This document shows, piece after piece, positions 38,004 to 64,000 of a DNA stretch of 64,000 nt. The translations under genes and the position numbers were made by a program. Source of the DNA: Pleionea litopenaei. GTDB taxonomy: Bacteria; Pseudomonadota; Gammaproteobacteria; Enterobacterales; Kangiellaceae. The number at the start of each line of letters is the position of its first letter. Within the stretch, counting starts at the first letter, position 1. The DNA lies in contig NZ_CP133548.1 of NCBI RefSeq assembly GCF_031198435.1, positions 1,924,501 to 1,988,500 on the forward strand, in the 5' to 3' direction. The notes beneath the pieces were generated by a model. The model was not told the DNA's origin. It saw nothing but the letters and a program-made list of their open reading frames with translations, and did not search any database.

Positions 38004-38007
38004 ATGA

Positions 38008-39312: not shown

Positions 39313-39434
39313 CAACTACAACATCTTTATTTTATGGACTGGCTGACACTTCAGCTCTTGATCTTGCTCTAGCGACGTAATGCTAGGCTCCCCTATTCTT
39401 TATTGGACACTAAAAGTGCCTATAGTTCCACAGC

Positions 39435-39926
39435 TTATGACTGTTCCGCTGACTCTGAACTTAACCGGCGCTCCCAACGTTGAGTGATATGCTGTATCAA
39501 CTCTGAGTCACCGGTCATGGTAAGCTCCCGCCCACGTGAGAGATACGCTAGATTGATCACTAACTCTGGCTCCGGCAACCAACCCGCACCACGCTCCGGC
39601 CACTCGATCAAAGAGGCCGCATTAGGTTGGTTTAAATACTCATCAACGCCAATAAACTCCAATTCTTCTGGGTCACTAATGCGGTATAAGTCAAAATGAT
39701 ACACTACCCAACCGTCTAACTCATAGGGTTCGACCAAGGTGTAGGTTGGGCTTTTGGTGGAACCTTGAAAACCAACGCCACGTAATACACCTCGAACTAA
39801 CGTGGTTTTTCCGGCACCCAAATCACCGTTTAAAAAGACCAGCGTCTGCCGACCTTTCAATTCGGCGCCCAGTAGACCACCAAACGCTAATGTATCTGTC
39901 TCGTCATGTAACAAAACCGTCGTCAC
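39435..39926 (-). CDS. tsaE: tRNA threonylcarbamoyladenosine synthesis ATPase TsaE
   Basis: 163 residues from a GTG. Walker A LNGDLGAGKTTLVRG; SPTYTLVEPYE and VYHFDLYRI are family signatures; EWPERG precedes the C-terminal end. It works with TsaB and TsaD to make t6A37. The start is two bases from the end of nnr and a 120-base gap leads to amiB. Confidence 0.95.
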   Translation of the reverse strand: MTTVLLHDETDTLAFGGLLGAELKGRQTLVFLNGDLGAGKTTLVRGVLRGVGFQGSTKSPTYTLVEPYELDGWVVYHFDLYRISDPEELEFIGVDEYLNQPNAASLIEWPERGAGWLPEPELVINLAYLSRGRELTMTGDSELIQHITQRWERRLSSESAEQS

Positions 39927-39928
39927 GA

Positions 39929-41467
39929 TTATTCGCCCATCGGATTAACAAGGCGGCGAATATACGGGAAAAGGTCTGAGGCTAACAAGCCTCTTTCTTG
40001 TCGAGTACCGTCAATATTAACCGCTAATTCCGCAGCTTCGCCATGAATGGCTACGCCGAGTCGAGCCGCGTCGAGCAAAGACAGCCCCTGTGCAATAAGG
40101 CCCGCGATGATTCCGGTTAAGGTATCGCCCATGCCGCCAGTTGCCATCCCGGGGTTGCCGACATTAATCACATAAATTTGTTCGGCGTCGGCGACTAAGG
40201 TGCCGTACCCCTTCAATATTGCTACTCCGCCGTACCGTTTAGCCAGTTCCGCAACCGCCGAAAATCGATCGGCTTCAATTTTAGCAACGCTAGTATTCAG
40301 CAAACGAGCCGCTTCACCTGGGTGCGGAGTAATCACTCGATTTTCAATCACGTGTGGACGTTGCGCGAGTAAATTTAACGCATCCGCATCCCAAACCGTC
40401 GGCGGTGCTTTGGCCTTTCCGGCGGCGAGATAATCGTCGAGCAAAGCCAGTGCATTTTTGCCCCACTTTAATTGGCCCATACCTGGCCCGACGGCAATCA
40501 CGGTCGCTGCTTCTAATAAACGGCGAAAGCTGTCTTTTGTGGCTGTTTCACTCAACCCATGCGCCATTATCTCTGGCCTTTGCGAAACAATGCTATGTAC
40601 GTGCTCGGGATGAGTGAGCAAGCTCACTAAACCAGCGCCCGTTCGGGCTGCGGCTTCAGAGCACAGTCGAGCAGCACCGGGAAAGCCCAAGGTACCGCCC
40701 AACACTAAACAATGGCCAAAATGCCCCTTATGACTGTGTCTCAGTCGCGGCTTGAGCCACTGTTTTCCTTGGAGGTAATTAAAACGATGGACGTTGGGAT
40801 TCACTAATGAGAAAACGCCTTGTCCGCACTTTAGGTCATTGAGCACCAGCTCTCCGCAAAACTCGGCTGCAATGCCCGTCAACAACCCACGTTTTAAGGC
40901 GATAAAGGTCACGGTAATTGTTGCTCGGATGGCCGCGCCCGCAATGCTGCCAGTATCGGCGATGAGCCCGCTCGGAAGATCCACTGCCACCACTGGCGAA
41001 GAACAGCGGTTAACTTGAGCGATGGCCTCGTCGAAGGGCGCGCGAATATCACCACTGACACCGGTCCCTAGCAGTGCATCCACAATAACGCTGTTATCTT
41101 TATCGTGATGACTTTGAAAGGTCTCAATATGCCAAGGCAGCTGTTCGACACCAATCGATTTTAAACGCATTAATGCGCGCTCAGCATCGCCTTGGCTACT
41201 GTCAGCTCCGGGCATAACCAAAACACTGACCGATAGCCCTGCTTGTGCCGCTAAACGAGCAACAACAAAGCCATCGCCACCGTTATTGCCCTTTCCGCAC
41301 AATACTAATAAATGTCGACGATCTGGCCATCGATCGCGAATTTCACTATAGACAGCGGCTCCTGCTCGCTCCATCAGAGGATAAGTGGAGCCATCATGAA
41401 ATCGCGCATAGAGCTGCTCTAAGCGCTTAACTTCTTCGGCAGTGTAAAGACCTGAGCCGTCCAACAT
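39929..41467 (-). CDS. nnr: Bifunctional NAD(P)H-hydrate repair enzyme Nnr
   Basis: 512 residues. N-terminal epimerase (YjeF_N/NnrE, about 1-215: LCGKGNNGGDGFVVAR, VDALLGTGVSG, VAVDLPSGL) fused to the C-terminal ADP/ATP-dependent dehydratase (NnrD, about 225-505: VLGGTLGFPGAARL, VWDADALNLL, ITPHPGEAARL, NPGMATGGMGDTLTG). Repairs damaged R- and S-NADHX. The gene queG, often next to it, is not present here; orn follows instead. Confidence 0.96.
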   Translation of the reverse strand: MLDGSGLYTAEEVKRLEQLYARFHDGSTYPLMERAGAAVYSEIRDRWPDRRHLLVLCGKGNNGGDGFVVARLAAQAGLSVSVLVMPGADSSQGDAERALMRLKSIGVEQLPWHIETFQSHHDKDNSVIVDALLGTGVSGDIRAPFDEAIAQVNRCSSPVVAVDLPSGLIADTGSIAGAAIRATITVTFIALKRGLLTGIAAEFCGELVLNDLKCGQGVFSLVNPNVHRFNYLQGKQWLKPRLRHSHKGHFGHCLVLGGTLGFPGAARLCSEAAARTGAGLVSLLTHPEHVHSIVSQRPEIMAHGLSETATKDSFRRLLEAATVIAVGPGMGQLKWGKNALALLDDYLAAGKAKAPPTVWDADALNLLAQRPHVIENRVITPHPGEAARLLNTSVAKIEADRFSAVAELAKRYGGVAILKGYGTLVADAEQIYVINVGNPGMATGGMGDTLTGIIAGLIAQGLSLLDAARLGVAIHGEAAELAVNIDGTRQERGLLASDLFPYIRRLVNPMGE

Positions 41468-41501
41468 GGTGCCAACGATTCCTTTGTTATCCCAAATTCA
41501 C

Positions 41502-42065
41502 TTAAATTTTAAACACTTTTTCACGATAAAACTTAAGCTCTTCTATCGACTCTCTAATATCATCTAACGCCAGGTGAGCACCTTTTTTGGTAAATCCATC
41601 AAGGGCCTCAGGCTGCCACCGTCTGGCAAGCTCTTTAACCGTGCTCACATCGATATGACGGTAATGGAAAAATCGCTCTAGTGTTGGCATGTGGCGCGCT
41701 AAAAAGCGTCTATCTTGGCAAATCGAATTACCACACATGGGCGATTTACCTGCAGGCACCCACTGTTCTAAAAAAGCAATGGTTTGCTCCGCGGCTTGAA
41801 TTTCACTTATCTGGCTGTCTTTAACGCGTTGAGTTAATCCGGAATCGCCATGATGCTTGGTATTCCACTCATCCATGGCGGCTAACGTTTGGTCGCTTTG
41901 GTGAATCGCAAGTACCGGCCCTTCGGCAAGCGTATTTAGCTCTTTATCGGTTACAATCGTCGCAATTTCGATGATCTTATCGGAGTCTGGCTCAAGCCCA
42001 GTCATTTCTAAATCAATCCATATCAAGTTATCGGCATGACTTTGCGGTGTACTTGAATTACTCAT
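41502..42065 (-). CDS. orn: Oligoribonuclease
   Basis: 187 residues. DEDDh exonuclease: WIDLEMTGL (D, E), [11 protein letters not shown], HxAxDD seen as [11 protein letters not shown] with catalytic His and Asp, and IDVSTVKEL. It degrades 2-5 nt RNA, including pGpG from c-di-GMP turnover. Divergent from the dehydratase/rsgA genes across 170 bases. Confidence 0.97.
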
Positions 42066-42236
42066 AGTTCTCCCCTATCTGATCGGATATTGCTCACGAC
42101 GGTTGAATATTACCATCATGATCGCGCAAAATAGCGCATCTTTGCAATCAAGCATTTCGAAAGTTGCTGATTGAGTCTTACTGCAAATAGGCTTGCGACT
42201 GAATTTATTGCAACTTAACGTAATTATAGGAAACTT

Positions 42237-42605
42237 ATGATGAGTCAACTAACCCAACAACAATGCCGTTATGACGACGAAGGAAAGCGTCCGCTTGAAT
42301 TAGACGAAATCAAATCACTGAGTGAACAAGTTGCCGCATGGACTATCAACTCAGAAGGCACGCGTATCGTTCGCCAGTTCAATTTCAAAAACTACTACCA
42401 CACCATGAACTTTGTAAACGCCATCGCCTGGATTGCCAACAAAGAAGCCCATCATCCCGATTTACAAGTCAGCTATGGCCATTGCGAAGTGACTTTCACC
42501 ACGCACGATTCTGGTAATCGACTAACCATTAATGACTTTATCTGCGCTGCGAAAGTCGATGCTTTAATGGACGCAGGTAATTTTGGTCCTAAGTTAGTTG
42601 ACTAG
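42237..42605 (+). CDS. phhB: Pterin-4a-carbinolamine dehydratase
   Basis: 122 residues. The motif KEAHHPDLQVSYGHCEVTFTTH is the [EDKH]-x(3)-H-[HN]-[PCS] dehydratase signature with the catalytic His pair. It recycles pterin for aromatic amino-acid hydroxylases and can act as a transcription cofactor (DCoH). Preceded by AGGAA. No phhA is nearby. rsgA follows after 14 bases. Confidence 0.95.
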   Translation: MMSQLTQQQCRYDDEGKRPLELDEIKSLSEQVAAWTINSEGTRIVRQFNFKNYYHTMNFVNAIAWIANKEAHHPDLQVSYGHCEVTFTTHDSGNRLTINDFICAAKVDALMDAGNFGPKLVD

Positions 42606-42619
42606 AGTAACAACGACCT

Positions 42620-43603
42620 ATGGCGAAACGACAAAAATTAACCTTGCAACAAAAGCGTCGCGTCGCCAAAAGCCAACGCAAAAAACTGCAAGACATTCCT
42701 GTCGACGATAATGACTTGGGCCCTGGCATTGAGGGGATAGTGGTCAGTCGTTTTGGAGAACAGGCCGACGTAGCAGAACCGAGCGGCCAAGTTCATCGCG
42801 TTTATTTACGTCAAAATCTGGGCAGTTGTGTCAGTGGCGACCGCATCATCTTCCGACTCGGAAAAGACGGTGGCGTGATTGAAGCTATCGAGGAACGACG
42901 TTCTGAGTTAACGCGCCCTACTCCCCATTCAGGTATTAAAACCATTGTCGCTAATATTGACCGAATCTTTATTGTTGTTGCACCATTTCCAGACTATTCA
43001 TCGACCATACTCGATCGTTACCTAGTGGCCTGCGAGCTTGCCGGTATACCGACCCAAATTGTCTTTAACAAACAAGATTTGATCACACCAGAACAACACG
43101 ATTTTTTTACCCAGCAAATTCAACTTTATCAATCGATTGGCTACACCGTTCATACCGTCAGTGCAAAATCGGATTTGGGTGTTGAAGAGTTAAAGCAACA
43201 AATGCTTGGTCATGAAAGCATTTTGGTTGGACAGAGCGGTGTGGGAAAATCCTCACTGATCAATAAAATTCTCCCTTCTTCACAAATAGCGACCGGTGAA
43301 GTTTCAGAAAATTCTCGTTTAGGTACGCATACCACGACGGCTTCGCGCGTTTACTTTTTCGACAGTGGTCACATTATTGACTCGCCCGGTGTTCGCGAAT
43401 TCGGACTAACTCATATGGAAGCCGACCAAATAATCTATGGCTTTCGCGACTTGCTCCCCTTTGCAGCCGAGTGTAAGTTTAGAAATTGTCGACACCTCAA
43501 TGAAAAAGGATGCGCCATTGCTCAAGCGGTAGAAACCAAAGCCGTTTCTAAACAACGACTTTCCAACTATCAAAGCATTATTAACAGTATTGCTACTTCG
43601 TAA
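42620..43603 (+). CDS. rsgA: Small ribosomal subunit biogenesis GTPase RsgA
   Basis: 327 residues. N-terminal OB fold (about 30-95), circularly permuted GTPase (G4 NKQD, G5 SAKS, G1 GQSGVGKSSLIN, G3 DSPGVREFG) and the zinc knuckle C-x4-C-x-H-x6-C in CKFRNCRHLNEKGC. It checks late 30S assembly. The K-rich N-terminus (MAKRQKLTLQQKRRVAKSQ) is typical. Confidence 0.97.
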   Translation: MAKRQKLTLQQKRRVAKSQRKKLQDIPVDDNDLGPGIEGIVVSRFGEQADVAEPSGQVHRVYLRQNLGSCVSGDRIIFRLGKDGGVIEAIEERRSELTRPTPHSGIKTIVANIDRIFIVVAPFPDYSSTILDRYLVACELAGIPTQIVFNKQDLITPEQHDFFTQQIQLYQSIGYTVHTVSAKSDLGVEELKQQMLGHESILVGQSGVGKSSLINKILPSSQIATGEVSENSRLGTHTTTASRVYFFDSGHIIDSPGVREFGLTHMEADQIIYGFRDLLPFAAECKFRNCRHLNEKGCAIAQAVETKAVSKQRLSNYQSIINSIATS

Positions 43604-43636
43604 GTCCTAACGGTAAACGCGGCTTTAAAAATCGGT

Positions 43637-43786
43637 TTAACGCTTCTCTGATTTCTTGAAGCTCGTCTCATCTAAGATTAACGCACACGTTTGATCGCCA
43701 TAGTAATTATTTAAATAATTACATTGATAGTGCGATGAATGAGTCTGAGAACTGACTTTTTTAATAGTAGACAATAAGGTTTGCAT
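43637..43786 (-). CDS. Short uncharacterised ORF, 49 residues
   Basis: ATG at 43784-43786 with GAGAGGA eight bases before it. The product begins MQTLLSTIKKVSSQ, contains two cysteines within a Tyr/Asn-rich stretch (HYQCNYLNNYYGDQTCALI) and ends KKSEKR. No membrane segment. A perfect TATAAT lies about 40 bases upstream of the start. Convergent with rsgA, 33 bases apart. I do not recognise the family; it could be a small cytoplasmic regulator. Confidence 0.5.
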   Translation of the reverse strand: MQTLLSTIKKVSSQTHSSHYQCNYLNNYYGDQTCALILDETSFKKSEKR

Positions 43787-43826
43787 GGTGAAAATCCTCT
43801 CAAAAACTTTTCAATAATCTTAAGTG

Positions 43827-43832
43827 ATTATA
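43827..43832 (-). promoter_or_regulatory. Candidate -10 box (TATAAT) for the 49-residue ORF
   Basis: A perfect minus-strand TATAAT, about 40 bases before the ATG at 43786. The best -35 is a weak TTAGAG about 18 bases further upstream. The remaining sequence up to 44063 has no gene that I can support. Confidence 0.4.
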
Positions 43833-44063
43833 GGAGGAATGCGAAACAGACTCTAATGAGTAAAATCTATCTTAATCTTCGTTACTGACGATTAAAAAAT
43901 CAGGCGTTTGCGTCCTTTTAGACTAGTAGTTAGGCGTTGAGCTAAATATGAAGATTTATAAAGTCCTTTCGAAATGGTTTCGCGCCGAGTTGAATAAATC
44001 TACTAGTTGCCTGGCGGGATAAGATCTCTGTCTTTTGCTGCGGTATGTTACTTGAGCCTATTG

Positions 44064-44573
44064 TTAATCTTTGGCCAAAAATGCCCCATGATAAGAAACT
44101 TTACCTACAGGCAAATCACCATGAATGACTAAAGCTTGAAAATACTCTGCGGGCACATCTGGAAGTATCAATCCCTCCTTGGAAGAAAAACCAAATCGAT
44201 GATAATAGTTAGGGTCGCCTAATACGACACAACCTTGAGCTCCGATTATTTTTAGCGCTTCAAGCGCAGTAGTTATAAGTTTTTTGCCAACGCCTTTACC
44301 CTGACATTTCGGAAGAACTGAGATAGGACCAAGACCATACCAATTATCTGAGCCATCCGAGATTACCACATGAGGAACAGCTACGTGACCAACAATTTCG
44401 CCTTCATTTTCAGCAACAATAGATAGTGTCAATGCGTTCGATTTACGAAGCTCTCTGGCAATATATTGCTCTCTATGATCAGTATGAGGGGCGTCAAGAA
44501 ACGCAGCAACCGTAACATCATGAATACTTTGAATGTCGTCAAGTTGCTCATGTCGAATTTCAATATTCAACAT
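44064..44573 (-). CDS. GNAT family N-acetyltransferase (YhbS-like)
   Basis: 169 residues. Acetyl-CoA binding motif A is VLPKCQGKGVGKKLITTALEAL, followed by the YhbS-type GCVVLGDPNYYHRFGF and SYHGAFL tail. Cytoplasmic; the substrate is unknown. AAAGGAG precedes the ATG. Together with the next gene it lies in the segment inserted between rsgA and motB. Confidence 0.85.
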   Translation of the reverse strand: MLNIEIRHEQLDDIQSIHDVTVAAFLDAPHTDHREQYIARELRKSNALTLSIVAENEGEIVGHVAVPHVVISDGSDNWYGLGPISVLPKCQGKGVGKKLITTALEALKIIGAQGCVVLGDPNYYHRFGFSSKEGLILPDVPAEYFQALVIHGDLPVGKVSYHGAFLAKD

Positions 44574-44623
44574 TAACTCCTTTTGGCTGCTTATTTGCTA
44601 TGATACAGAGCGTTGCCCAAGTT

Positions 44624-45322
44624 TTAATGGCCACTAAAATCAACCAGTAATTTTTGAATCGTTTCAAGATCGCTGTTGTTTGTGTACGTTTTAGTAGCAT
44701 TAAATATTAATATTTTTTCATCTCTTAGAACGATGTTGGAGGCAGTAACTTCTGTTATGAGTACAACATCATCTTCAGTTTGAACCTGCATTTTTCGTAT
44801 CAAAGCAAACGCGATGTTATCTTCGGTGTTAGAAAATACTCCCAAGGGTATAATTCCTTCTAACTCCAGTTCGACAGCAGATGACAATAATTTCGAAGCC
44901 GTTTTTGATGCATTTTTTATGATCTTTCTAGCAGCTTCGGGCATCCCTTCAAACATCTGATCTTGCTGAGAAACCACACTAGCGCGAAACTGCTCAAACT
45001 CATTCTTAGTTATATTTCGATTTATCAAGGACTTTAGAGTTTGAACCTGAAGATAAGGATTGTCAGCAGTGTGATCAACATCAGGAAACAGTGCAAACTC
45101 TTTATTTTCTATAAAGCATGCGATTAGAGTGTGGGTTGGCGGCAATGATGAAGAAAACATTTGCTTGAAATCTTCTGATTTTTCACAAGCATTGATGTAT
45201 CCATCAGGCTGAACAATTGTCAATCCCTTGCCACCAACAAATACCTCCAACCTCTTATTAGCAGCAGCAACAGGAATTGCGACAAGCAATAGAAAGGTTA
45301 ATATATACTTAAATGCGTTCAA
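44624..45322 (-). CDS. Exported protein of unknown function
   Basis: 232 residues with a signal peptide (MNAFKYILTFLLLVAIPVAAA). Two cysteines (in INACEKS and LIACFIE) could pair after export. The rest is alpha/beta with KIIKNASKTASKLLSSAVELELEG and a C-terminal beta-rich segment. No family recognised. The stop is followed 50 bases later by the acetyltransferase start. Confidence 0.7.
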   Translation of the reverse strand: MNAFKYILTFLLLVAIPVAAANKRLEVFVGGKGLTIVQPDGYINACEKSEDFKQMFSSSLPPTHTLIACFIENKEFALFPDVDHTADNPYLQVQTLKSLINRNITKNEFEQFRASVVSQQDQMFEGMPEAARKIIKNASKTASKLLSSAVELELEGIIPLGVFSNTEDNIAFALIRKMQVQTEDDVVLITEVTASNIVLRDEKILIFNATKTYTNNSDLETIQKLLVDFSGH

Positions 45323-45471
45323 AATATACTCCGTTAACTTATGTCATTCAAAGTCTGCTGACTTAGCGGCAGATGAGTTGATGTTTTTTGTGCCCATAGT
45401 TCAAATAGTCCCGTAGTAAACGGTCTAAAAAACTTATTGCTCTGAATTATTAATGAAACTCAAAAGGTTAT

Positions 45472-45527
45472 TGAACGCTCAATCAAAAGGCAGCTATAAG
45501 CCATCCATTTTCAATTTTTCGTTATGT
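45472..45527 (-). other. attC-like imperfect palindrome next to the tRNA-like gene
   Basis: On the minus strand CATAACGAAAAATTGAAAAT... leads through a TTAT loop to ...TTTTGATTGAGCGTTCAA. The arms (AACG...GGCT and the complement of AGCTGCC...CGTT) pair imperfectly, as in integron attC sites, but the right-hand core is not the usual GTTRRRY. Only weak support. Confidence 0.3.
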
Positions 45528-45533
45528 GTAAAT

Positions 45534-45644
45534 TGGGAAGAAAGGGCAGGATTCGAACCTGCGTTCTGCGATACGACTAATCGAACACAAAAGAGCAGTC
45601 CATAAATGGAGCTGCCCACCTTCAGCCACTCAGTCACCTTTCTT
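45534..45644 (-). tRNA. Non-canonical tRNA-Ser-like gene with enlarged anticodon loop
   Basis: The minus strand folds as a class II tRNA of 111 nt. An 8-bp acceptor AAGAAAGG/CCTTTCTT, discriminator C and encoded CCA (45534-45536). The D arm is serine-like (GACTGAGTGGCTGAAGGT). Perfect T arm GCAGG-TTCGAAT-CCTGC. A long variable region of about 31 nt can form GTTC/GAAC plus GAT/ATC. The anticodon stem GGCAG/CTGCT closes a 13-nt loop (45599-45611), not 7, and inside it TCCA can pair with TGGA leaving a TTTA tetraloop. So no normal anticodon is presented. It may be a decayed tRNA, an allo-tRNA-like molecule, or a tRNA mimic with another role. Confidence 0.65.
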
Positions 45645-45828
45645 AGATTCAATATTATTCAAAATCTTTATAAACCATTATTGCATTAAATACCATCGCT
45701 CCAACTGTTTTTCTCACCTATCAATATCGAATTTTACCATTACGTACAATGTGTACCTTGGCTGTCTACCACTCAAAGTAATATTAAGGCTTCAACATAA
45801 ACTTTCAGAACATATTTGACTGACTCTT

Positions 45829-45860
45829 GTATCGTCCTAACTTATTTTCGTATCGTCCTA
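45829..45860. repeat. Pair of 11-bp direct repeats spaced by two helical turns
   Basis: GTATCGTCCTA at 45829-45839 and again at 45850-45860, start-to-start 21 bp. The two are embedded in TCTTGTATCG...CCTACAAGA, giving partial dyad symmetry around the pair. This looks like a protein-binding site. Confidence 0.6.
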
Positions 45861-45884
45861 CAAGAGTGCCTTAGACTAAGAAAC

Positions 45885-45949
45885 TGTGTTATGGGGATCT
45901 GCTAGATGGTTCTGCTAGAGGGTTGTGTTAGTTGATTGTGTTAGAAGGT
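45885..45949. repeat. Five 13-bp tandem repeats
   Basis: Units at 45885 (TGTGTTATGGGGA), 45898 (TCTGCTAGATGGT), 45911 (TCTGCTAGAGGGT), 45924 (TGTGTTAGTTGAT) and 45937 (TGTGTTAGAAGGT). They lie just downstream of the DUF924 gene and show no ORF. Confidence 0.8.
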
Positions 45950-45968
45950 TTTGACGTAGGCATTGCAA

Positions 45969-46508
45969 CTAAAATGATGAGCCCGGTTGCTTAAGAAAAT
46001 CTATTTCTTCAGCGGTGCTGGTTCGATTGAGCAGTTTATTTCGATGCGGATAGCGGCCAAACCGGTCAATGATTTTTTTGTGTTTTAATTCGAAATCTAA
46101 ATTATTTTCTAAACCCGGTTCTGAGAAAAGTTCAACGGCTCGCTGATGAATCGCTTTTGATTCACTGTGCATGAATGGCATATATAAAAAGGCTTTCCGG
46201 GTAGCCGATAAACCAGCATGTTTGTTCTGCGCAATCGCTTCTTGACTAAGTATCAACGCCATTCCGTCGTAGGCAAAAGCGCGCGCTTGATCTCTGAACA
46301 TATTCCGCGAAAATTGATCGAGTACAATTATCTCGGCTAAAGCACCTAGTGCGCTATTTCGCCAGTCGACTAGCTCACCCATACTTGCGGCGCGATGTAC
46401 ATCGCTAAATAACTCGATAATTTTTTGGTCATACTGACTATTTTTCTGAAACCAATCTTTCGCTTCACTCTGTTCAAACCAAAAGCTTATGACTCTTTGA
46501 TATTCCAT
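45969..46508 (-). CDS. DUF924 family protein
   Basis: 179 residues, all-helical. Family hallmarks: VISFWFEQSEAKDWF at the N-terminus, LAEIIVLDQFSRNMFR, YMPFMHSES and DRFGRYPHRNKLLNR. The function is unknown in bacteria. It is the first gene after the motAB operon on this strand. Confidence 0.9.
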   Translation of the reverse strand: MEYQRVISFWFEQSEAKDWFQKNSQYDQKIIELFSDVHRAASMGELVDWRNSALGALAEIIVLDQFSRNMFRDQARAFAYDGMALILSQEAIAQNKHAGLSATRKAFLYMPFMHSESKAIHQRAVELFSEPGLENNLDFELKHKKIIDRFGRYPHRNKLLNRTSTAEEIDFLKQPGSSF

Positions 46509-46527
46509 CGTCTTTTATTATCCCAAT

Positions 46528-46560
46528 CGACTTGCTAATCAACTTGCTAATCAACTTGGC
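46528..46560. repeat. 12-bp tandem repeat between motB and the DUF924 gene
   Basis: CGACTTGCTAAT (46528), CAACTTGCTAAT (46540) and a partial third copy CAACTTGG (46552). Confidence 0.75.
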
Positions 46561-46576
46561 TTGGTCGCAGCATACG

Positions 46577-47428
46577 CTAAGGTTTGTTCGTCTTCAAACC
46601 ACCCGCGGACTCTTTAATGGCGTCGGCAATGTTTTGTTTTAAGACAATAATCGCTATTCGACGATTGATTGGCGCGCGCGGATTTTTAGTATCGAACAAT
46701 ACCGAGTCTGCAAAACCTTCGACACGAGCAACCTTTTGTCCGGGGATTCCTCCGCGAATCAAGGCTCGGCGTGCTGCATTAGCACGATCGGAAGACAACT
46801 CCCAGTTGCCGTAATTTCCAAGATCAAAAGGCGTAGCGTCGGTATGACCCGTGATACTCAAGCTGTTAGGCACTTTTTTAAGAACTTCAGCAAGACTGAA
46901 CAGTATTCTGCGAGAGTAAATTTTTAGCTCACTGCTACCACTATCAAACATTGGTCGCTTGTCTTTATCAACAATTTGAATTCTTAGACCTTCGGGCGTG
47001 ATGTCGATCAAAATCTGATCGCGATAAGCGGAAAAGGCAGCACTGGTTTCGACCATTTGCTCTAACTGAAGTTTTAACGCTTCGAGTCGTTTGCGCTCAT
47101 TTTCTTCTGCGAGATCATCAATGGACGTTTCATCTAACTTTATTTCGGGTGCCGGCATATTAATCACGGCAGTGTTGGCACCGCCTTCACCAATAGGAAC
47201 ATTGTTAGCGCCTGGCGTTAACGTTGAACCCGCGGGATCGATAAAGTAGCCAGAAATGGCCTGTTTCTCTTCTTCTGATGTGTTGCCCATTAGCCATAAC
47301 AATAAGAAAAAAGCCATCATTGCCGTGGCAAAGTCAGCGAATGCGACCTTCCAACTGCCGCCATGAAAATCATGCCCGCCTTTCTTGACCTTCTTGATAA
47401 TAATGGGGCGCTTTTGACCGTCTTCCAT
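46577..47428 (-). CDS. motB: Flagellar motor stator protein MotB
   Basis: About 283 residues from ATG 47428 (a GTG directly before it extends the frame by one codon). One membrane segment with the proton-carrying Asp, D32 in FADFATAMMAFFLLLW. Plug and linker follow (about 55-120), then the OmpA-like peptidoglycan-binding domain (about 150-270; LSITGHTDATPFD, LSSDRANAARRALI). Couples ion flow to flagellar rotation. Eight bases after motA; likely H+-driven by resemblance. Confidence 0.96.
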   Translation of the reverse strand: MEDGQKRPIIIKKVKKGGHDFHGGSWKVAFADFATAMMAFFLLLWLMGNTSEEEKQAISGYFIDPAGSTLTPGANNVPIGEGGANTAVINMPAPEIKLDETSIDDLAEENERKRLEALKLQLEQMVETSAAFSAYRDQILIDITPEGLRIQIVDKDKRPMFDSGSSELKIYSRRILFSLAEVLKKVPNSLSITGHTDATPFDLGNYGNWELSSDRANAARRALIRGGIPGQKVARVEGFADSVLFDTKNPRAPINRRIAIIVLKQNIADAIKESAGGLKTNKP

Positions 47429-47438
47429 CACGCGTCAC

Positions 47439-48290
47439 CTAGCGTCCACGAACGCGAGCTTCTAATTCTTGAAACCCTGGGCGAATTTTATGTGGCAAGG
47501 TTTTACGACCAAATTCAACGGCCACTTGTGGCGGTACGCCGTTTACCGTTGCAATGATTGCGGCTTTCATGCACTCAAAATATTGAGCTTCTTCGTGCGC
47601 TCGATGCTCCATGGCAGTCGCAAAGGGACCGACAAATCCATAGGCCAGTAAAATACCTAAAAACGTTCCTACTAGAGCCGCCGCCACATGGTAACCAATT
47701 TCTTCTGGCGGGCCTCCTAACGACTGCATCGTAATCACAATTCCGAGTACGGCAGCGACGATACCAAAACCTGGCAGTGCATCGGCGACTTTACCCAATG
47801 CCATTCCGGGCGCTAGCTGATCATGGTGATGGGTCTCTAACTCTGCGTCCATCAAGTTCTCGAGTTCGTAGGCGGTCATATCTCCGATAATCATCAAGCG
47901 TAGATAATCGCAAATAAATTCTATAGCCTTGTCGTCTTTCCGGATTAATGGGAATTTAGTGAATACATTACTCGTCTTAGGTTCTTCGATATGCGCCTCA
48001 ATGGCAATTAAGCCTTCTTTACGCATCACGTTAAATAAATCGTAAAGCATGGCGAGTAATTCTAAATATAAATACTTATTAAAGCGCGAACTGCCCAATA
48101 ACTTAGGCAGGCGACGAAACACCTCAAGAGTAGTTTTCATGGGATTCGCGATGACAAAAGCCCCAAAGGCCGCGCCACCTATGATCAATAGCTCAAATGG
48201 TTGCCACAATGCGATGAGTTGACCATGCGATAACACGTACCCACCCAACACAGCAGCAACAACAATAATCACCCCAATAATAATCGGCAT
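47439..48290 (-). CDS. motA: Flagellar motor stator protein MotA
   Basis: 283 residues with four membrane segments (two near the N-terminus, two about 170-225), separated by the large cytoplasmic loop. Conserved blocks include GGYVLSHGQLIALWQPFELLIIGGAAFG and the proline-containing ALPGFGIVAAVLGIVITM. Pairs with MotB in one operon. Divergent from psd. Confidence 0.97.
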   Translation of the reverse strand: MPIIIGVIIVVAAVLGGYVLSHGQLIALWQPFELLIIGGAAFGAFVIANPMKTTLEVFRRLPKLLGSSRFNKYLYLELLAMLYDLFNVMRKEGLIAIEAHIEEPKTSNVFTKFPLIRKDDKAIEFICDYLRLMIIGDMTAYELENLMDAELETHHHDQLAPGMALGKVADALPGFGIVAAVLGIVITMQSLGGPPEEIGYHVAAALVGTFLGILLAYGFVGPFATAMEHRAHEEAQYFECMKAAIIATVNGVPPQVAVEFGRKTLPHKIRPGFQELEARVRGR

Positions 48291-48423
48291 GCATAAATCC
48301 TGTTTATTTTTGTTTCAAGTTACTGAATTAACTATAGTTTAAAGTTAAAACTTCGCGAGTTTCGCGGTAAAAAATAGTCAAATTCGTCTTGCTCGGGTAA
48401 AATTCGCGGTTTATTCAGATTAA

Positions 48424-49290
48424 ATGCATGTTATGAGCTTACTTGATCACCTAAAAACCATTCCGCAGTACCTTATTCCACAGCATGGGCTTTCACAGCT
48501 GGCGGGACGACTCGCGGATCGCGAAAATCACCCTTGGAAAGACTGGGTAATTAAAAAGTTTGCCGAACATTACAAGGTCGATATGTCGATCGCGGTAGAG
48601 CCTGATTTAACCGCCTACGCCAGCTTCAACGACTTTTTTACCCGAGCCATTCGGCCAGAAACGCGACCAATTTGTGATGAGCCAAATACCATGGCTTGCC
48701 CTGTCGACGGTGCCGTCAGTCAATTTGGAGCCATCACCTCTGGTAAAATCGTGCAAGCCAAGGGCCATGATTACACCGTGCAAGACTTGTTAGGTGGAGA
48801 TGCCGAGTTGGCTCAAGCCTTCGAAGGTGGTGAATTCTGTACCATTTATCTATCACCGCGCGATTACCATCGTTATCACATGCCAATCGACGGTCAACTG
48901 ACTCGTATGATTCACGTTCCAGGTAAGCTGTTCAGCGTTAACCCACTCACCGCTCGCACCGTGCCAAACCTGTTTGCTCGTAATGAGCGGGTCGTCGCCA
49001 TGTTTGATACTGAGTGGGGCCCCATCGCTTACGTCGCGGTTGGCGCCACCATCGTCGGCAGTATGGAAATGGTTTGGTCTGGTGTCGTCACACCACCAAC
49101 TAAAAAAGACGTCACGGTAACCGACTACGCCGCCGGCGAAGTATCGTTAGCACGTGGCGATGAAGTTGGACGCTTCCGACTTGGTTCAACCGTCATTATG
49201 TTACTTCCAAAAGGTGACTATCAGTGGGATGAAGCGATTCAGCTAGGCGCTGCAACTCAACTGGGTCAACCATTGATCAAACGCCGCTAG
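48424..49290 (+). CDS. psd: Phosphatidylserine decarboxylase proenzyme
   Basis: 288 residues from ATG 48424; a second ATG at 48433 gives the more usual MSLLDHL start, and the ribosome site does not decide. FFTRAIRPETRPI and CPVDGAVSQFG precede the core; YHRYHMP holds a catalytic His. The self-cleavage motif is LGST (RFRLGSTVIMLL), whose Ser becomes the pyruvoyl group. Makes phosphatidylethanolamine at the inner membrane. Confidence 0.97.
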   Translation: MHVMSLLDHLKTIPQYLIPQHGLSQLAGRLADRENHPWKDWVIKKFAEHYKVDMSIAVEPDLTAYASFNDFFTRAIRPETRPICDEPNTMACPVDGAVSQFGAITSGKIVQAKGHDYTVQDLLGGDAELAQAFEGGEFCTIYLSPRDYHRYHMPIDGQLTRMIHVPGKLFSVNPLTARTVPNLFARNERVVAMFDTEWGPIAYVAVGATIVGSMEMVWSGVVTPPTKKDVTVTDYAAGEVSLARGDEVGRFRLGSTVIMLLPKGDYQWDEAIQLGAATQLGQPLIKRR

Positions 49291-49326
49291 ATTGATTTTT
49301 TAAACGTCTTTTAAGAGTGTCGCGCT

Positions 49327-49345
49327 GAGCCTCATTAAGAGGCTC
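49327..49345 (+). terminator. Hairpin after psd
   Basis: GAGCCTC, loop ATTAA, GAGGCTC, 36 bases after the psd stop. No strong T-run; a moderate-confidence terminator. Confidence 0.45.
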
Positions 49346-49422
49346 AACCAGTACTTTTAAGCAGCGGGTTCAGCGAAACTCTTGAAGCCGCTTTTCGAGA
49401 GATTAAATCAAAGAGTCTCTGA

Positions 49423-50535
49423 TTACTTTTTCGGAACTAAGCGCTTCACACCAACACCATCCACCGAAACATACAAGTACCCATCCGATAGTTGTCGAAC
49501 ATTGCGGGTGCGACCGATGCCCTCGAAGACAATTTCTTGTTCAATCACTTTATCGCCGTCAACGGTGAGTAAGACAAGGTATCCAAACTTAAGCGAGCCC
49601 ACCAAGACCTTCCCTTTAAATTCGGGGTAACGGTCACTGGTTACAAAAACCATGCCTGACGGCGCGATAGACGGCACCCAATACCACGCGGGTTGAGTCA
49701 TTCCTTCCTTTTCAGTGAGTTCGGTAAATTTTGTTCCGTTGTAATTAATGCCATAACTCACGACTGGCCAACCGTAATTGGCTCCTGCTTTGATAACATT
49801 GATTTCATCGCCACCACGCGGCCCATGCTCATGAACCCAGATATTACCAGTCACAGGGTTCAAAGCCATTCCTTGAGGATTACGATGGCCGTATGAGTAA
49901 ATGGCTGGTTTTCCTTCCTTCACAAATGGATTATCGCTGGGAATAGCACCGTCAGGTTTAACACGATAGATTTTTCCTCCATCGCGCTGAATATCTTGCG
50001 GGTTTTGATCTCGCGCACCGCGATCACCAATTGAGAAAAACAAGTCACCGTTTTTATCAAACTCAATTCGGCTACCATAGTGATAACGACTATCGGTATT
50101 CGGGCTGCCTTTATAAATAACTTCGACGTTACTCAATTGCTGCTCTTTTAATTGACCGCGAATGATCGCCGTATTATTGCCAGCACCGTCACCTTGCGGG
50201 CTAGACAGTGACAGATAGATCCAACCACTTTTGGCGTAATCAGGCGCCAATTCAATATCGAGCAAACCACCTTGTCCATTGCTTTCAATCGCGGGCAACC
50301 CGCTCACTTCTTGGCGAGTTTTACCATCCGATGAAACTAAGAATAATTGACCCGCTCGCTCTGAAACCAAAAAGCGACCGTCCGGAAGTTGCGCTAACCC
50401 CCAAGGCACATTGATTCCTTCGATAAACACATCGGCTTGATAAGGATAATTCGATGGTGCAGCTTTTTCTTCCGCTATTAGGTTGGTACTGACACTGACC
50501 GACAAGGCCAATAATACTTTAAACACCCATTTCAT
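49423..50535 (-). CDS. Exported PQQ-dependent aldose sugar dehydrogenase (YliI-like)
   Basis: 370 residues with a signal peptide (VFKVLLALSVSVSTNLIA). Six-bladed beta-propeller of the soluble glucose/sorbosone dehydrogenase family: VPWGLAQLPDGRFLVSERAG, GQGGLLDIELAPDY, HYGSRIEFDKNGDLFFSIGDRG, YGHRNPQGMALNP and EHGPRGGDEIN, which include the PQQ/Ca2+ ligands. Oxidises aldoses in the periplasm if PQQ is available; no pqq genes are here. Convergent with psd. Confidence 0.92.
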   Translation of the reverse strand: MKWVFKVLLALSVSVSTNLIAEEKAAPSNYPYQADVFIEGINVPWGLAQLPDGRFLVSERAGQLFLVSSDGKTRQEVSGLPAIESNGQGGLLDIELAPDYAKSGWIYLSLSSPQGDGAGNNTAIIRGQLKEQQLSNVEVIYKGSPNTDSRYHYGSRIEFDKNGDLFFSIGDRGARDQNPQDIQRDGGKIYRVKPDGAIPSDNPFVKEGKPAIYSYGHRNPQGMALNPVTGNIWVHEHGPRGGDEINVIKAGANYGWPVVSYGINYNGTKFTELTEKEGMTQPAWYWVPSIAPSGMVFVTSDRYPEFKGKVLVGSLKFGYLVLLTVDGDKVIEQEIVFEGIGRTRNVRQLSDGYLYVSVDGVGVKRLVPKK

Positions 50536-50578
50536 AATCTACTCCTACCCAATTTTAGTCTGTGGTCATTTTAACAAC

Positions 50579-51511
50579 TCACAAGGCAAAAGGAACTACC
50601 TTCGCGATATCCGACTCGCCTAACGCGATCATCAGTAATCGGTCGACTCCTAAAGCGACGCCACTGCACTCCGGGAGCCCTTGCTCAAGTGCAGAAAGAA
50701 ACGACTCATCGATATCGACGGCCTCTTTACCCATCTGCTTTCGTTGCTTATTGTCTTGCTCAAAACGCTGCCGTTGCTGCTTAGCGTCGGTCAACTCCCA
50801 AAAGCCATTGGCAAGTTCGATTCCTCGACAATAACACTCAAATCGAGCGGCGGTTTGTCGATCGGGATTCAATCGGGCCAGCGCTGCTTGACTGGCAGGA
50901 AAGTCATACACCAAAACGATGCTATCTTGCCCTAATTGTGGTTCAATTTTACTGGCGAATAACAAGGATAAGTAATCATCCCGCTGCAAGTCATCGGGTA
51001 GCTGCCCTAACTGTTGTTGCGCGAGTTCGATGAGTCGCGACGCTTCGATGGTTAACGGGTCGAATTGCAAAAACTCTAAGAAGCACTCTCGATACGACAC
51101 ATTTTCGCGCGCATCAATTCCGGTGATCTCGCTGACTAATTGAAACACTTCATCCATCAGCTGGTGATGGTCCCATCCCAACCGGTACCATTCGAGCATG
51201 GTAAATTCAGGCTGATGTTTTCTCCCCCGTTCTTCTGCACGAACATTTTTTGCTAATTGATAAATATCGCCACTGCCAGCACACAGTAATCGTTTCATCG
51301 CGTATTCAGGCGATGTCTGTAAAAAATAGGTTTGTCCCATATTCTGCACCTGCAGTGCAGTCATATAAGGATCAGTAACGCTGTGCGTCATGATCAAGGG
51401 AGTATCAACTTCTAAAACACCGCGTTGGAAAAAAAACTCACGAATGTGCCGTAAGATTTTCGCGCGCTGATTCAAGTTATCGATGGGAGCGGAGGGTTTC
51501 CATGCACTCAT
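50579..51511 (-). CDS. epmA: EF-P--(R)-beta-lysine ligase
   Basis: 310 residues, a truncated class II lysyl-tRNA synthetase-like enzyme without the anticodon domain. Motif 2 NVRAEERGRKHQPEFTMLEWYRL and motif 3 SGVALGVDRLLMIALG are present. It attaches (R)-beta-lysine to Lys34 of EF-P. Located beside efp, with epmB on the other side, forming a modification module. Confidence 0.96.
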   Translation of the reverse strand: MSAWKPSAPIDNLNQRAKILRHIREFFFQRGVLEVDTPLIMTHSVTDPYMTALQVQNMGQTYFLQTSPEYAMKRLLCAGSGDIYQLAKNVRAEERGRKHQPEFTMLEWYRLGWDHHQLMDEVFQLVSEITGIDARENVSYRECFLEFLQFDPLTIEASRLIELAQQQLGQLPDDLQRDDYLSLLFASKIEPQLGQDSIVLVYDFPASQAALARLNPDRQTAARFECYCRGIELANGFWELTDAKQQRQRFEQDNKQRKQMGKEAVDIDESFLSALEQGLPECSGVALGVDRLLMIALGESDIAKVVPFAL

Positions 51512-51601
51512 AAAGACCTGTTAACCTGCTAAGAAAAAGTCGTCATTCAAACCATAGTCCAATAAATAGCACAAATTAGAATCGCTAAATATCACTACCA
51601 C

Positions 51602-51631
51602 AAAAAAAGGCAGCGATATCGCTGCCTTTTT
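51602..51631 (-). terminator. Rho-independent terminator after efp
   Basis: A perfect 18-bp palindrome GGCAGCGATATCGCTGCC (51609-51626) bounded by T/A runs on both sides. It lies between efp and epmA on the minus strand, so epmA likely has its own promoter or depends on readthrough. Confidence 0.85.
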
Positions 51632-51638
51632 CAAACAT

Positions 51639-51674
51639 AGATTCTCTCAGAAAAATAGAATCTCTCAGAAAAAT
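51639..51674. repeat. 18-bp tandem duplication downstream of efp
   Basis: AGATTCTCTCAGAAAAAT (51639) and AGAATCTCTCAGAAAAAT (51657), differing at one base, then a decayed third copy running towards the efp stop. Confidence 0.8.
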
Positions 51675-51689
51675 GGATTTTCTTAAAAA

Positions 51690-52256
51690 CTACTTCGCTC
51701 GACCTGCGTATTCACCAGAACGCGTATCTACTTTAATTTTCTCACCGATTTGCACGAACAAAGGAACGTTGACTACCGCACCAGTGTTCACGGTTGCTGG
51801 CTTACTACCACCGCTCGATGTATCGCCTTTAAGGCCAGGATCAGTCTCTGTCACTTCAACGATCACCATATTAGGCGGCGTTACCGCAATCGGGTTTCCA
51901 TTCCACGTGGTAATTTGCACTGAGTCTTGCTCAATTAGCCACTTAGCATTGTCACCAACGGCCTTTGCATCCGCCGCAACCTGCTCAAAAGATGCCGGAT
52001 CCATAAAGTGCCAAAATTCACCATCGGTATACAGATATTCCATGTCTTGATCCATGACATCGGCGCCTTCAACTGAGTCTCCAGATTTAAAGGTTCGCTC
52101 AACGACACGACCAGTCAACAAATAACGCAACTTTGCTCGAGCAAATGCCTGGCCTTTTCCAGGTCGAACAAATTCATTTTCGACAATGACGCAAGGCTCT
52201 CCATCTTGCATTATTTTTAGGCCATTGCGAAATTCATTGGTACTATAGTTCGCCAT
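51690..52256 (-). CDS. efp: Translation elongation factor P
   Basis: 188 residues, three OB-like domains. The modified lysine is K34 in [10 protein letters not shown]. Domain II and III blocks include [23 protein letters not shown] at the C-terminus. Relieves ribosome stalling at polyproline. Divergent from epmB, 40 bases apart. Confidence 0.97.
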
Positions 52257-52296
52257 TAACTTACCTCAGCTTAATTCGGATTAATTCAGTCAATTT

Positions 52297-53316: not shown

Positions 53317-53582
53317 AAAGTAACCCAGATAATCGAGTAAACTGAGTGACATACCTGTTTTCTACCGCTAGAGGCGGTAAATAAAGCCTAAAAGCAAGTA
53401 CTTACTTACTCTTTAAAAGCTATTAATTATTCGACTTTCACTCAATTTTGAACTATTACTTAAAATATAAGATAATATTCGACATTGAGATTGAAACTCA
53501 GATGACAGGCTGTAATATAGGCAGTTTACGGCTGCGCCAGTCGCCGCTATACTTTATGCGTACTTTCAAGGAATGAGGTAGT
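53317..53582 (+). promoter_or_regulatory. Upstream region of the PilZ-like gene with a candidate promoter
   Basis: TTTACG (53525-53530) and TATACT (53548-53553) spaced 17 bases, about 27 bases before the ATG, form a reasonable sigma-70 promoter. A TACCGC/GCGGTA hairpin near 53365 may end epmB transcription. The rest is AT-rich with nothing recognised. Confidence 0.4.
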
Positions 53583-62875: not shown

Positions 62876-63001
62876 GCTAACGCCTATAGCATTGAAAATT
62901 AAGCGCGATCAGCGGTTAAGCCAGATAATGATATTAGCAATATAATAAAGGTTGTGTATTTCATATTTCTATTAACTCCGTGCACAGAGGCTTGTTAAAT
63001 T
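62876..63001 (-). other. Probable attC site (B), hybrid or enlarged
   Basis: The right half (minus strand AACCGCTGATCGCG...TATAGGCGTTAGC) is clearly the same kind as sites A and C. The left end TTTAACAAGCCTCTG begins directly after the stop of the 114-residue gene and can pair with the right end (GCCT/AGGC). About 60 bases between hold a short signal-peptide-like ORF (62899-62964, minus). Total about 126 bp, in the size range of long attC sites. Confidence 0.5.
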
Positions 63002-63002
63002 T

Positions 63003-63347
63003 TTACTCAACTATTAGCTCCAGCCCCATAGAACCTAGCCCAAAAAGTTGCTCATGATCTATGGGCCTGATGCTGAACACAGAACTAACAGTAGTATCTG
63101 ATGGCATGGAAACTAAACTATATAGCTCGTTTTTAGATGCCTCTGAATATTGAATAGCAACCTTATCATGTGTGCAGGAAATCTCTACTTTCATGCCATT
63201 GCAAATAAGCTCGATAGTTCCTTGGTCAGTCCCTATCTCTTTAACGGTACCATGTTTAGACTTTTTGATATCTCTAGCCAACGCCGCAATTTCACTAGCA
63301 GAACCAGAGATATTTGTAGCTAGTTTATTAGAACTAACTTTCAACAT
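63003..63347 (-). CDS. Cassette-borne unknown protein, 114 residues
   Basis: ATG 63347, 13 bases after the end of attC A. Starts MLKVSSNKLATNISGSASEI, has a helical first third and a beta-rich remainder (GTIELICNGMKVEISC). No signal peptide. Its stop is followed immediately by AATTTAACAAG of site B. Family not recognised. Confidence 0.6.
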   Translation of the reverse strand: MLKVSSNKLATNISGSASEIAALARDIKKSKHGTVKEIGTDQGTIELICNGMKVEISCTHDKVAIQYSEASKNELYSLVSMPSDTTVSSVFSIRPIDHEQLFGLGSMGLELIVE

Positions 63348-63354
63348 GATGAAA

Positions 63355-63450
63355 TTTAACGCCCCTAAGCAGAGGCAAATTTGTTTTTAGCGCGCAGCGC
63401 GTTAATTTGTCCAGCCAGTTCGCTGGCGAACTGACTTGGTTTGTTATAAG
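63355..63450 (-). other. attC recombination site (A)
   Basis: Minus strand: CTTATAACAAACCAAGTCAG at the left and TGCTTAGGGGCGTTAAAT at the right, with inner hairpins (CCAGC...GCTGG and a GCGCGC palindrome). The left core TTATAAC contains the TAA stop of the 145-residue gene. The order AAGTCAG - GGACAAAT - AAC(C)GC - ... - CTGCTTA - GCGTTA is shared with site C. About 96 bp. Confidence 0.75.
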
Positions 63451-63881
63451 TCTTCAATGGTTGCCGAAATGTATGTTAATTTTAAAAGGTACTTCCGTGT
63501 AATTTCACTACCATCTTTTCGATAATTTATAGATTTAAGCGTTATTTCTGGCTCAGACTCATCCCAATTCAATACTTCCCACTTATGAGCTTCAGGAAGC
63601 TGATAGATTGACATTACAGGTGCTTCTTCTCCATCCGCTTCTGTTGTCACAACATAAATTTTTTCTAGCGCTCTACATTCGTAAAGAATTGCACATGAGT
63701 CCATGCTTGAGGTTTTGTAAAGACGTGCTTCGAAATCGTATTTCTCAAATCGCTGTCTTTCGCCAGTCCATACAAGTTTATTCAGGACAAATTCAAGCTC
63801 ACTATTTACTGCACGCTCAAGCGGACCCGAATGTACGGAAAACGAAATCAATACGATAGAAAATAGAATTAGCCTAATCAT
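63444..63881 (-). CDS. Cassette-borne exported protein of unknown function
   Basis: 145 residues with a signal peptide (MIRLILFSIVLISFSVHS). Two cysteines in SCAILYEC. Beta-rich mature part (KIYVVTTEADGEEAPVMSIYQL). Ends in EDL with its stop codon inside attC A, the classical cassette arrangement; ATG lies 13 bases after attC C. Confidence 0.65.
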   Translation of the reverse strand: MIRLILFSIVLISFSVHSGPLERAVNSELEFVLNKLVWTGERQRFEKYDFEARLYKTSSMDSCAILYECRALEKIYVVTTEADGEEAPVMSIYQLPEAHKWEVLNWDESEPEITLKSINYRKDGSEITRKYLLKLTYISATIEDL

Positions 63882-63890
63882 TTAATTGCC

Positions 63891-63963
63891 TTATAACGCT
63901 TTTAAGCAGTGGTAATTGACCGCAATAAGCGGTTATTTGTCCTGCTGACTTTGATTGTTATGA
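63891..63963 (-). other. attC recombination site (C)
   Basis: Minus strand: ATAACAATCAAAGTCAGCAG, then GGACAAATAACCGC-TTAT-TGCGGTCAATT, then CCACTGCTTAAAAGCGTTAT. The halves pair imperfectly around a perfect ACCGC/GCGGT inner stem, as attC sites do in single-stranded form. Strongest of the four sites. Length about 70 bp. Confidence 0.8.
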
Positions 63964-63998
63964 TTAACCAATTTGAACCATCTTGGTTCGTAACAATA
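63933..63998 (-). CDS. C-terminal end of a cassette gene running off the window
   Basis: A minus-strand frame open from the right edge ends at a TAA within site C. The tail contains YEPRWFKLVNHNN, which reads like real protein. A competing frame stops earlier (VQIG then TAA at about 63966). Too short to identify. Confidence 0.35.
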   Translation of the reverse strand, partial: YCYEPRWFKLVNHNNQSQQDK

Positions 63999-64000
63999 CT

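Follow-up and report, generated by a model that had tools for sequence, protein, structure and literature searches.

A putative integron gene cassette carrying a tRNA-Ser-like RNA with a 13-nt anticodon loop in Pleionea litopenaei

The window analysed here is a stretch of 64,000 nucleotides of the genome of Pleionea litopenaei (G000). A tRNA-Ser-like RNA of 111 nt, including an encoded CCA, was recognised on its minus strand (45534..45644) from its sequence, its fold and a comparison with R1, a model of this RNA. It lies within a putative integron gene cassette of 246 bp (45476..45721, minus strand), delimited from the block of homology with a cassette of the congener G001, which holds the second copy of the RNA, and from the boundaries and attC site of that cassette. 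An attC remnant (45476..45528, minus strand), identified by comparison with G001, includes an R'' box, CACATAAC, and the end TTGAGCG^TT; the complementarity of its R' partner is lost. The cassette is solitary, between a DUF924 gene and an ORF of 232 amino acids (44624-45322). This ORF has no Pfam or NCBIfam match; it and a GNAT (44064-44573) occupy 44064-45322, and no clear attC site is found alongside them. The cassette, the 232-aa ORF and the GNAT are all comprised in a segment from the DUF924 gene to rsgA (43604..45968) that is absent from genome G004 according to tblastn; there, the matches to DUF924 and rsgA are about 57 bp apart, and 43604-45968 is therefore extra relative to G004. Short imperfect repeats (CTAACACAATCAACTAACACAA; CTAGCAGAACCATCTAGCAGATCC) occur at 45722-45968, between the DUF924 gene and the cassette. 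Elsewhere in the window, cassettes of a chromosomal integron array, detected by IntI and cassette scan, were traced as far as 62881 (62881..64000, minus strand). The IntI of this array is encoded about 10.5 kb past the right end of the window (L030 10593-11513), and the array (window 62881-64000 and L030 400-11513) has classical attC sites (GCATAACAAGTTGCTCAA...TTAGCAAAGCG^TTATGCG).

Read on the minus strand from 45644 to 45534, the parts of the RNA follow one another in the order AAGAAAGG-UG-ACU-GAGUGGCUGAA-GGU-G-GGCAG-CUCCAUUUAUGGA-CUGCU-31 nt-GCAGG-UUCGAAU-CCUGC-CCUUUCUU-C-CCA. In brief, the sequence and the fold define, all on the minus strand: (i) the 5' strand of the acceptor stem, AAGAAAGG (45637..45644), which pairs over 8 bp with the 3' strand CCUUUCUU (45538..45545), i.e. 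AAGAAAGG/CCTTTCTT, the length of 8 bp following from the position of the 3' CCA; (ii) a D arm (45618..45634) with a 3-bp stem ACU/GGU and the loop GAGUGGCUGAA; (iii) an anticodon arm (45594..45616), the same in G001, in which GGCAG/CUGCU closes a 13-nt loop CUCCAUUUAUGGA (45599-45611) and which, with a bulged C, the TCCA/TGGA pairing and a UUUA tip, is in effect a 9-pair hairpin; (iv) a 31-nt variable region (45563..45593) able to fold into an arm of 11 pairs, flanked on either side by a single unpaired base; (v) a T arm GCAGG-UUCGAAU-CCUGC with a 5-bp stem (45546..45562); and (vi) a discriminator C, replaced by A in G001, followed by the encoded CCA (45534..45537). The structure described in the original prediction, namely the 8-bp acceptor, the Ser-type D arm, GGCAG/CTGCT with its 13-nt loop, TCCA/TGGA, the long variable region, the T arm and CCA, was thus found again. 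A search pattern made of these elements had a single match in the window and none in 100 shuffles.

The D loop shows one mismatch with that of the genome's own tRNA-Ser GCU, and the variable arm is spaced as in its own tRNA-Ser GGA gene, a single base being left unpaired on either side; R1 gives scores of 55-61 bits to the three normal tRNA-Ser genes of the genome. Besides the loop, the 8-bp acceptor, the long variable arm and the C at base 73 are further oddities. Recognition by SerRS had been suggested from the sequence: the D arm and the variable-arm spacing are Ser-like, but base 73 is C in G000 and A in G001, as against G in all three normal tRNA-Ser of the genome, which makes serylation doubtful. 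A charged, non-decoding tRNA-Ser, loaded by SerRS with a serine that would be donated outside the ribosome, or serving to tie up serine or SerRS, is one of the readings to be weighed, and a rather improbable one. It would agree with the Ser-type D arm, the spacing of the variable arm, the encoded CCA and a 13-bp acceptor/T branch as in tRNA-Sec, a SerRS substrate according to passages of one study (PMC7609411). It is opposed by base 73 and by the 10 window proteins and 7 G001 neighbours, among which no known serine-transferring enzyme is encoded; the sole protein of an acyl-transferase kind near the RNA is the window GNAT.

In the predicted folding of the G000 copy, pair probabilities are 0.59-1.0 for the acceptor (lowest for the outermost pair), 0.99 for the T arm, 0.66-0.95 for the anticodon arm including TCCA/TGGA, 0.02 for the D stem and at most 0.13 for the variable arm. 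The anticodon arm of the G001 copy is less certain (0.46-0.67), and its variable arm reaches 0.58-0.92 with one pair at 0. The cloverleaf is the minimum-energy fold in neither copy (-32.0 vs -36.1 kcal/mol in G000 and -27.6 vs -31.5 kcal/mol in G001), and the fold z-score is -1.66, 11 of 200 shuffles being at least equally stable. The case for the fold rests mostly on the tRNA signature and on conservation, energy by itself being no proof. A tRNA-model search and a structure prediction had been proposed as checks on the sequence reading: the latter predicts the acceptor, the anticodon hairpin and the T arm well in G000, and the former lists 44 RF00005 matches for the genome, none of them at this locus (150 of 311 candidates scored). 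Likewise, ARAGORN found 0 tRNAs in the window, and the only result of comparing 38000-54000 with Rfam was a single weak match of no relation to tRNA.

Decoding with a 13-nt loop is unlikely, barring some processing step. Anticodon loops of tRNAs often begin with CU, as does the present loop, and a 7-nt loop could be imagined to arise if 6 nt were excised or if bases paired in an unusual way. Nevertheless, ARAGORN with introns allowed and its usual threshold reports nothing on L001 or L002, and bacterial splicing of so short an insert is not known, so that decoding after all is held to be very improbable. A relaxed ARAGORN search with short introns yielded many spurious cloverleaves and was left out of the evidence.

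The same RNA is present in G001 at another locus, with 105 of 111 nt identical; the search for a homologue with the same loop, another check proposed beforehand, thus succeeded. The block shared by the two genomes is about 247 bp long, and the remainder of the 20-kb stretch of G001 around its cassette (L003) has no blastn match to the window (E 1e-5). In the remainder of the shared cassette, 106 of 137 columns are identical; with gaps counted, differences thus affect 31 of these 137 columns and 6 of the 111 positions of the RNA (Fisher p=1.3e-4). The RNA has changed about four times more slowly than this remainder, as estimated from one pair of sequences. The first 51 nt, the whole anticodon arm included, show 0 differences between the two copies. 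The six differences comprise four in the variable region, one in the T stem (G-C to G-U) and one at base 73, and among the 36 proposed pairs a single one is broken, in one sequence only. TCCA/TGGA is identical in both copies, so that these two sequences provide no covariation. In four genes (motB, motA, psd and that of DUF924), 241 of 339 4-fold sites differ between G000 and G001; therefore, the whole cassette was either exchanged after the species split or constrained, and its conservation could partly reflect recent horizontal exchange.

A pseudogene would be expected to change as fast as its surroundings, which is not the case for this RNA. Simple decay appears unlikely because the RNA changes more slowly than the cassette and is intact in the worn window cassette, and the view that this is not a simply decayed tRNA is strengthened by a relative with an identical anticodon arm. 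According to the original prediction, close relatives with a normal 7-nt loop at the same locus would have pointed to decay; neither such a copy nor any copy of the cassette was found in the stretches around the DUF924 gene of four congeners (that of G001 stopping short of rsgA). It is nevertheless conceivable that an ordinary tRNA-Ser was captured as a cassette with its loop already altered and that both copies inherited it without selection. The existence of two known copies only, the other searched genomes being devoid of it apart from weak tRNA-sized matches in G003 and G009, and the wear of the cassette in G000 speak for this scenario, whereas the slower change, the nearly unbroken pairing and the intact 8-bp acceptor, encoded CCA and extended hairpin speak against it, and it is regarded as unlikely. 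The RNA could also have another regulatory or structural role (small RNA, source of tRNA fragments or cassette insulator), the tRNA fold serving only for stability and processing. Such a role would be consistent with the anticodon hairpin as a strong internal element (pair probability up to 0.95 in G000 and 0.67 in G001) and with the invariant 51-nt 5' part; however, no target or partner was identified and the T arm and CCA would need no keeping, and this possibility is given a low probability. From the comparison of the two copies known, a selected, non-decoding tRNA mimic is likely.

In G001, the RNA is clustered with small genes that share its strand and are accompanied by attC sites: (i) the cassette extends from L003 10118 (G^TTATGTG) to 9873 (GAGCG^TTATACC), its R'' box CACATAAC lies 5 nt after CCA and complements the cassette's own start GTTATGTG, and it ends with GCG^TT, where a CdiI-immunity cassette begins, (ii) this next cassette starts with TTATACC, has the R'' box GGTATAAC (pairing with GTTATACC) and ends with GGTG^TT, and (iii) the third one starts with TTATGCG and has the R'' box GCATAAC (pairing with GTTATGC). 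In these three consecutive cassettes, each R'' box is complementary to the first bases of its own cassette. In a cassette-grammar scan, 40 resampled versions of L003 gave 0.65 rows on average and never more than 2, against 5 for L003 itself, including 3 from the opposite strand; in the window, 4 of its 8 rows were dropped for negative lengths, and single matches carry little weight. Judged on sequence features, it is the chain of three G001 cassettes that counts. A Drt3a and Drt3b reverse-transcriptase defence pair is encoded near the G001 cassette cluster (L003 2731-5951).

The attC site of the G001 cassette resembles those of the host integrons. An attC sequence model (R2) was built from seven other attC sites (5 from G000 and 2 from G001), the site of the tRNA-like cassette being excluded; RNAalifold found no consensus pairs in these seven sites, and R2 is therefore a sequence-only model. 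R2 matches the end of the G001 cassette (L003:9868-9923, E=0.003 in 181 kb); among the 9 matches listed, which include the model's own 7 source sites, this one is the weakest. Furthermore, IntI is found over the curated cut-off in 4 of the 5 genomes of the genus, among them G000 (2 IntI) and G001 (1 IntI). The G^TT boundaries and the R'' box complementary to the cassette's own start are thus observed in G001 and no longer in the window copy, on which R2 has no match: its 5' boundary is mutated (G^ATAGGTG vs G^TTATGTG in the congener), its 3' end reads GCG^TTCAATAACC and the R'' pairing is lost. From these worn ends, despite which the RNA is intact, the window cassette is predicted to be probably immobile by now, and the GTT at the 3' junction would fit an insertion at a secondary site. 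On the whole, the shared block is, by these features, an integron gene cassette, and the tRNA-Ser-like RNA is the only cargo recognised in it; its nature as a cassette was absent from the original prediction.

The distribution of this RNA is narrow. Among 61 genomes searched (the own genome, 4 congeners and 56 of the family and order), matches were obtained in G000 and G001 only, and an expanded pattern, aimed at Ser-like RNAs whose centre is enlarged, retrieved the same two among 394 genomes of the order. R1, searched over 40 family genomes, detected, besides G000 and G001, tRNA-sized matches of 32-37 bits in G003 and G009; this search is weak as a negative, its first pass having missed even the normal G000 tRNA-Ser. 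A pattern combining the Ser D arm with the anticodon hairpin had 0 matches in genome_contigs (84,980 species by its description, the genome of the window and its near kin being possibly outside it), 0 in viral_contigs and 0 in plasmids; its sole phage match was short, to a tRNA-Met, and was rejected. With an 8-bp acceptor, the Ser-like enlarged-centre pattern had two matches in genome_contigs, both discarded: L064 is a tRNA-Sec according to ARAGORN, and L065, in which ARAGORN reports no tRNA, looks like a chance match.

In viral contigs, the pattern with a 7- or 8-bp acceptor gave 17 matches, 5 of which, of three kinds, read as single Ser-type tRNA-likes, while the remaining 12 resemble adjacent tRNAs or other kinds of sequence. 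One of the five (L051 4615-4713) is a viral tRNA-Ser-like in which a 12-bp hairpin fills a 33-nt anticodon loop. It lies beside a tRNA cluster, ARAGORN reporting five tRNAs in the 6.5 kb examined of its 315-kb contig, and a near-exact pattern retrieved L051 alone and no second copy. The others (L063 7747-7839; L049 2970-3065; L059; L061) are viral Ser-type tRNA-likes with enlarged centres and uncertain anticodon arms.

Several tRNAs with cassette-like or odd features were set aside. A tRNA followed by CCA, TAAC and GCGTTA was found in 13 of the 394 genomes; from 80 letters each, these appear to be ordinary tRNAs, 8 of the 13 being followed by a terminator-like hairpin and a T run, and the pattern, which demanded a 7-bp acceptor, is blind to the 8-bp RNA described here. 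An odd tRNA of G000 (C1:1850731-1850793; L012, L035), with a 6-nt loop and GCATAAC after CCA, reads as a decayed tandem tRNA, with no cassette seen around it, and five odd tRNA-family matches in G001, G003 and G004 appear to correspond to contig edges, phage-like sequences or remnants. In the open-licence literature, as judged by titles and the starts of abstracts, no tRNA-bearing integron cassette was found, and decoy or enlarged-loop tRNAs were represented by work on frameshift, mitochondrial, PARIS and tRNA-elbow subjects, with nothing of the present kind. A superintegron figure marks non-coding RNAs, and the passages found of that article do not mention a tRNA cassette (PMC11551772).

Taken as a whole, these data are read, tentatively and with a confidence somewhat short of even, as a cassette-borne, selected, non-decoding tRNA-Ser-like RNA acting as a tRNA mimic. 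From tRNA biology, the cassette RNA would be transcribed, would have its 8-bp acceptor trimmed by RNase P, would fold as a class II tRNA and would be unable to decode. A consensus scan detected no sigma-70-like promoter in either copy (shuffles average 1.3). The mimic could bind proteins that recognise the acceptor, the elbow or the long variable arm and, as a decoy, might draw away toxins that cleave or modify tRNA, or else a synthetase; such a decoy would be the RNA counterpart of the cassette-borne immunity genes of the same genomes. The cassette adjoining the tRNA-like one in G001 encodes a CdiI_3 immunity protein (L003 9459-9848, E=2.3e-29) weakly similar to the CdiI of PDB 5j5v (E=0.002); the toxin in that complex, CdiA-CT UPEC536, cleaves tRNAs within the anticodon loop, as described in one article (PMC9086364). 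CdiI_3 is encoded in 2 of 5 congeners, the two with the tRNA-like gene. The G000 protein (G000:C1:1993962-1994240), encoded in the integron array 24 kb away, shares 42% identity over 101 aa with that of the G001 cassette, and a second CdiI_3 of G001 is encoded on another contig. Five genomes are too few for this co-occurrence to be significant, and cassette neighbours reshuffle.

Because of this cassette neighbour and of the co-occurrence with the tRNA-like gene, protection by a decoy is the first choice of mechanism and serine donation the second; taken by itself, the decoy is possible without being probable. One point against it is that a normal loop would be expected in a decoy directed at an anticodon nuclease. 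In a more specific version, judged to have little probability, the RNA would be a mobile RNA immunity gene, no longer able to decode, whose anticodon hairpin has been extended so as to occupy effectors with which competitors or phages cleave or modify tRNA; it would belong to the same cassette pool as CdiI-type genes, and the hairpin-filled tRNA-Ser-likes of phages would be an independent version of it.

Integron cassettes are mostly regarded as a reservoir of genes for proteins, and the genes for tRNAs as a fixed part of decoding. If the mimic reading is true, a mobile, non-decoding tRNA-shaped RNA would represent a class of non-coding cargo for integron cassettes and, with its 111 self-contained nucleotides, a small and testable case in which a tRNA is maintained for a role outside translation.

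Compared with known types, the RNA resembles tRNA-Ser by its D-loop sequence, its long variable arm with Ser-type spacing, its T arm and its CCA, and a cloverleaf with these elements can be drawn even if it is not the minimum-energy fold. It differs by its hairpin-capable loop, 13 nt in both copies instead of 7 nt with a serine anticodon, which rules out an ordinary tRNA overlooked by software, and by its 8-bp acceptor, its base 73 other than G and its longer variable arm. Selenocysteine tRNA (SelC) has a UCA anticodon and a 6-bp D stem. The present RNA shares with it the 8 + 5 bp acceptor/T branch, as had been pointed out from the sequence, and the long variable arm; its identity as tRNA-Sec is ruled out by the 3-bp D stem, by the lack of a UCA anticodon and by the absence of the locus among the 12 G000 matches listed for RF01852, none of which is over the cut-off (150 of 249 candidates scored). 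Allo-tRNAs also exist in an 8/4 form and have a normal anticodon loop. They too are Ser-like tRNAs of unusual architecture, as described in two studies (PMC7609411; PMC7590224), with an acceptor branch of 12 bp in the 9/3 form (PMC7590224), whereas that of the present RNA measures 13 bp (8 + 5) and an anticodon is lacking; the earlier suggestion of an allo-tRNA-like molecule is contradicted by this architecture. The viral tRNA-Ser-likes (L051, L063 and L049/L059/L061) also have Ser-type arms around an enlarged centre, filled in L051 by a 12-bp hairpin, but theirs are 7-bp acceptors, other sequences and viral contigs. Finally, the cassette itself is similar to integron cassettes by its attC site with R'' and R' boxes, its G^TT boundaries and its clustered same-strand neighbours, and differs from them in that its cargo is a tRNA-like RNA and not a protein gene.
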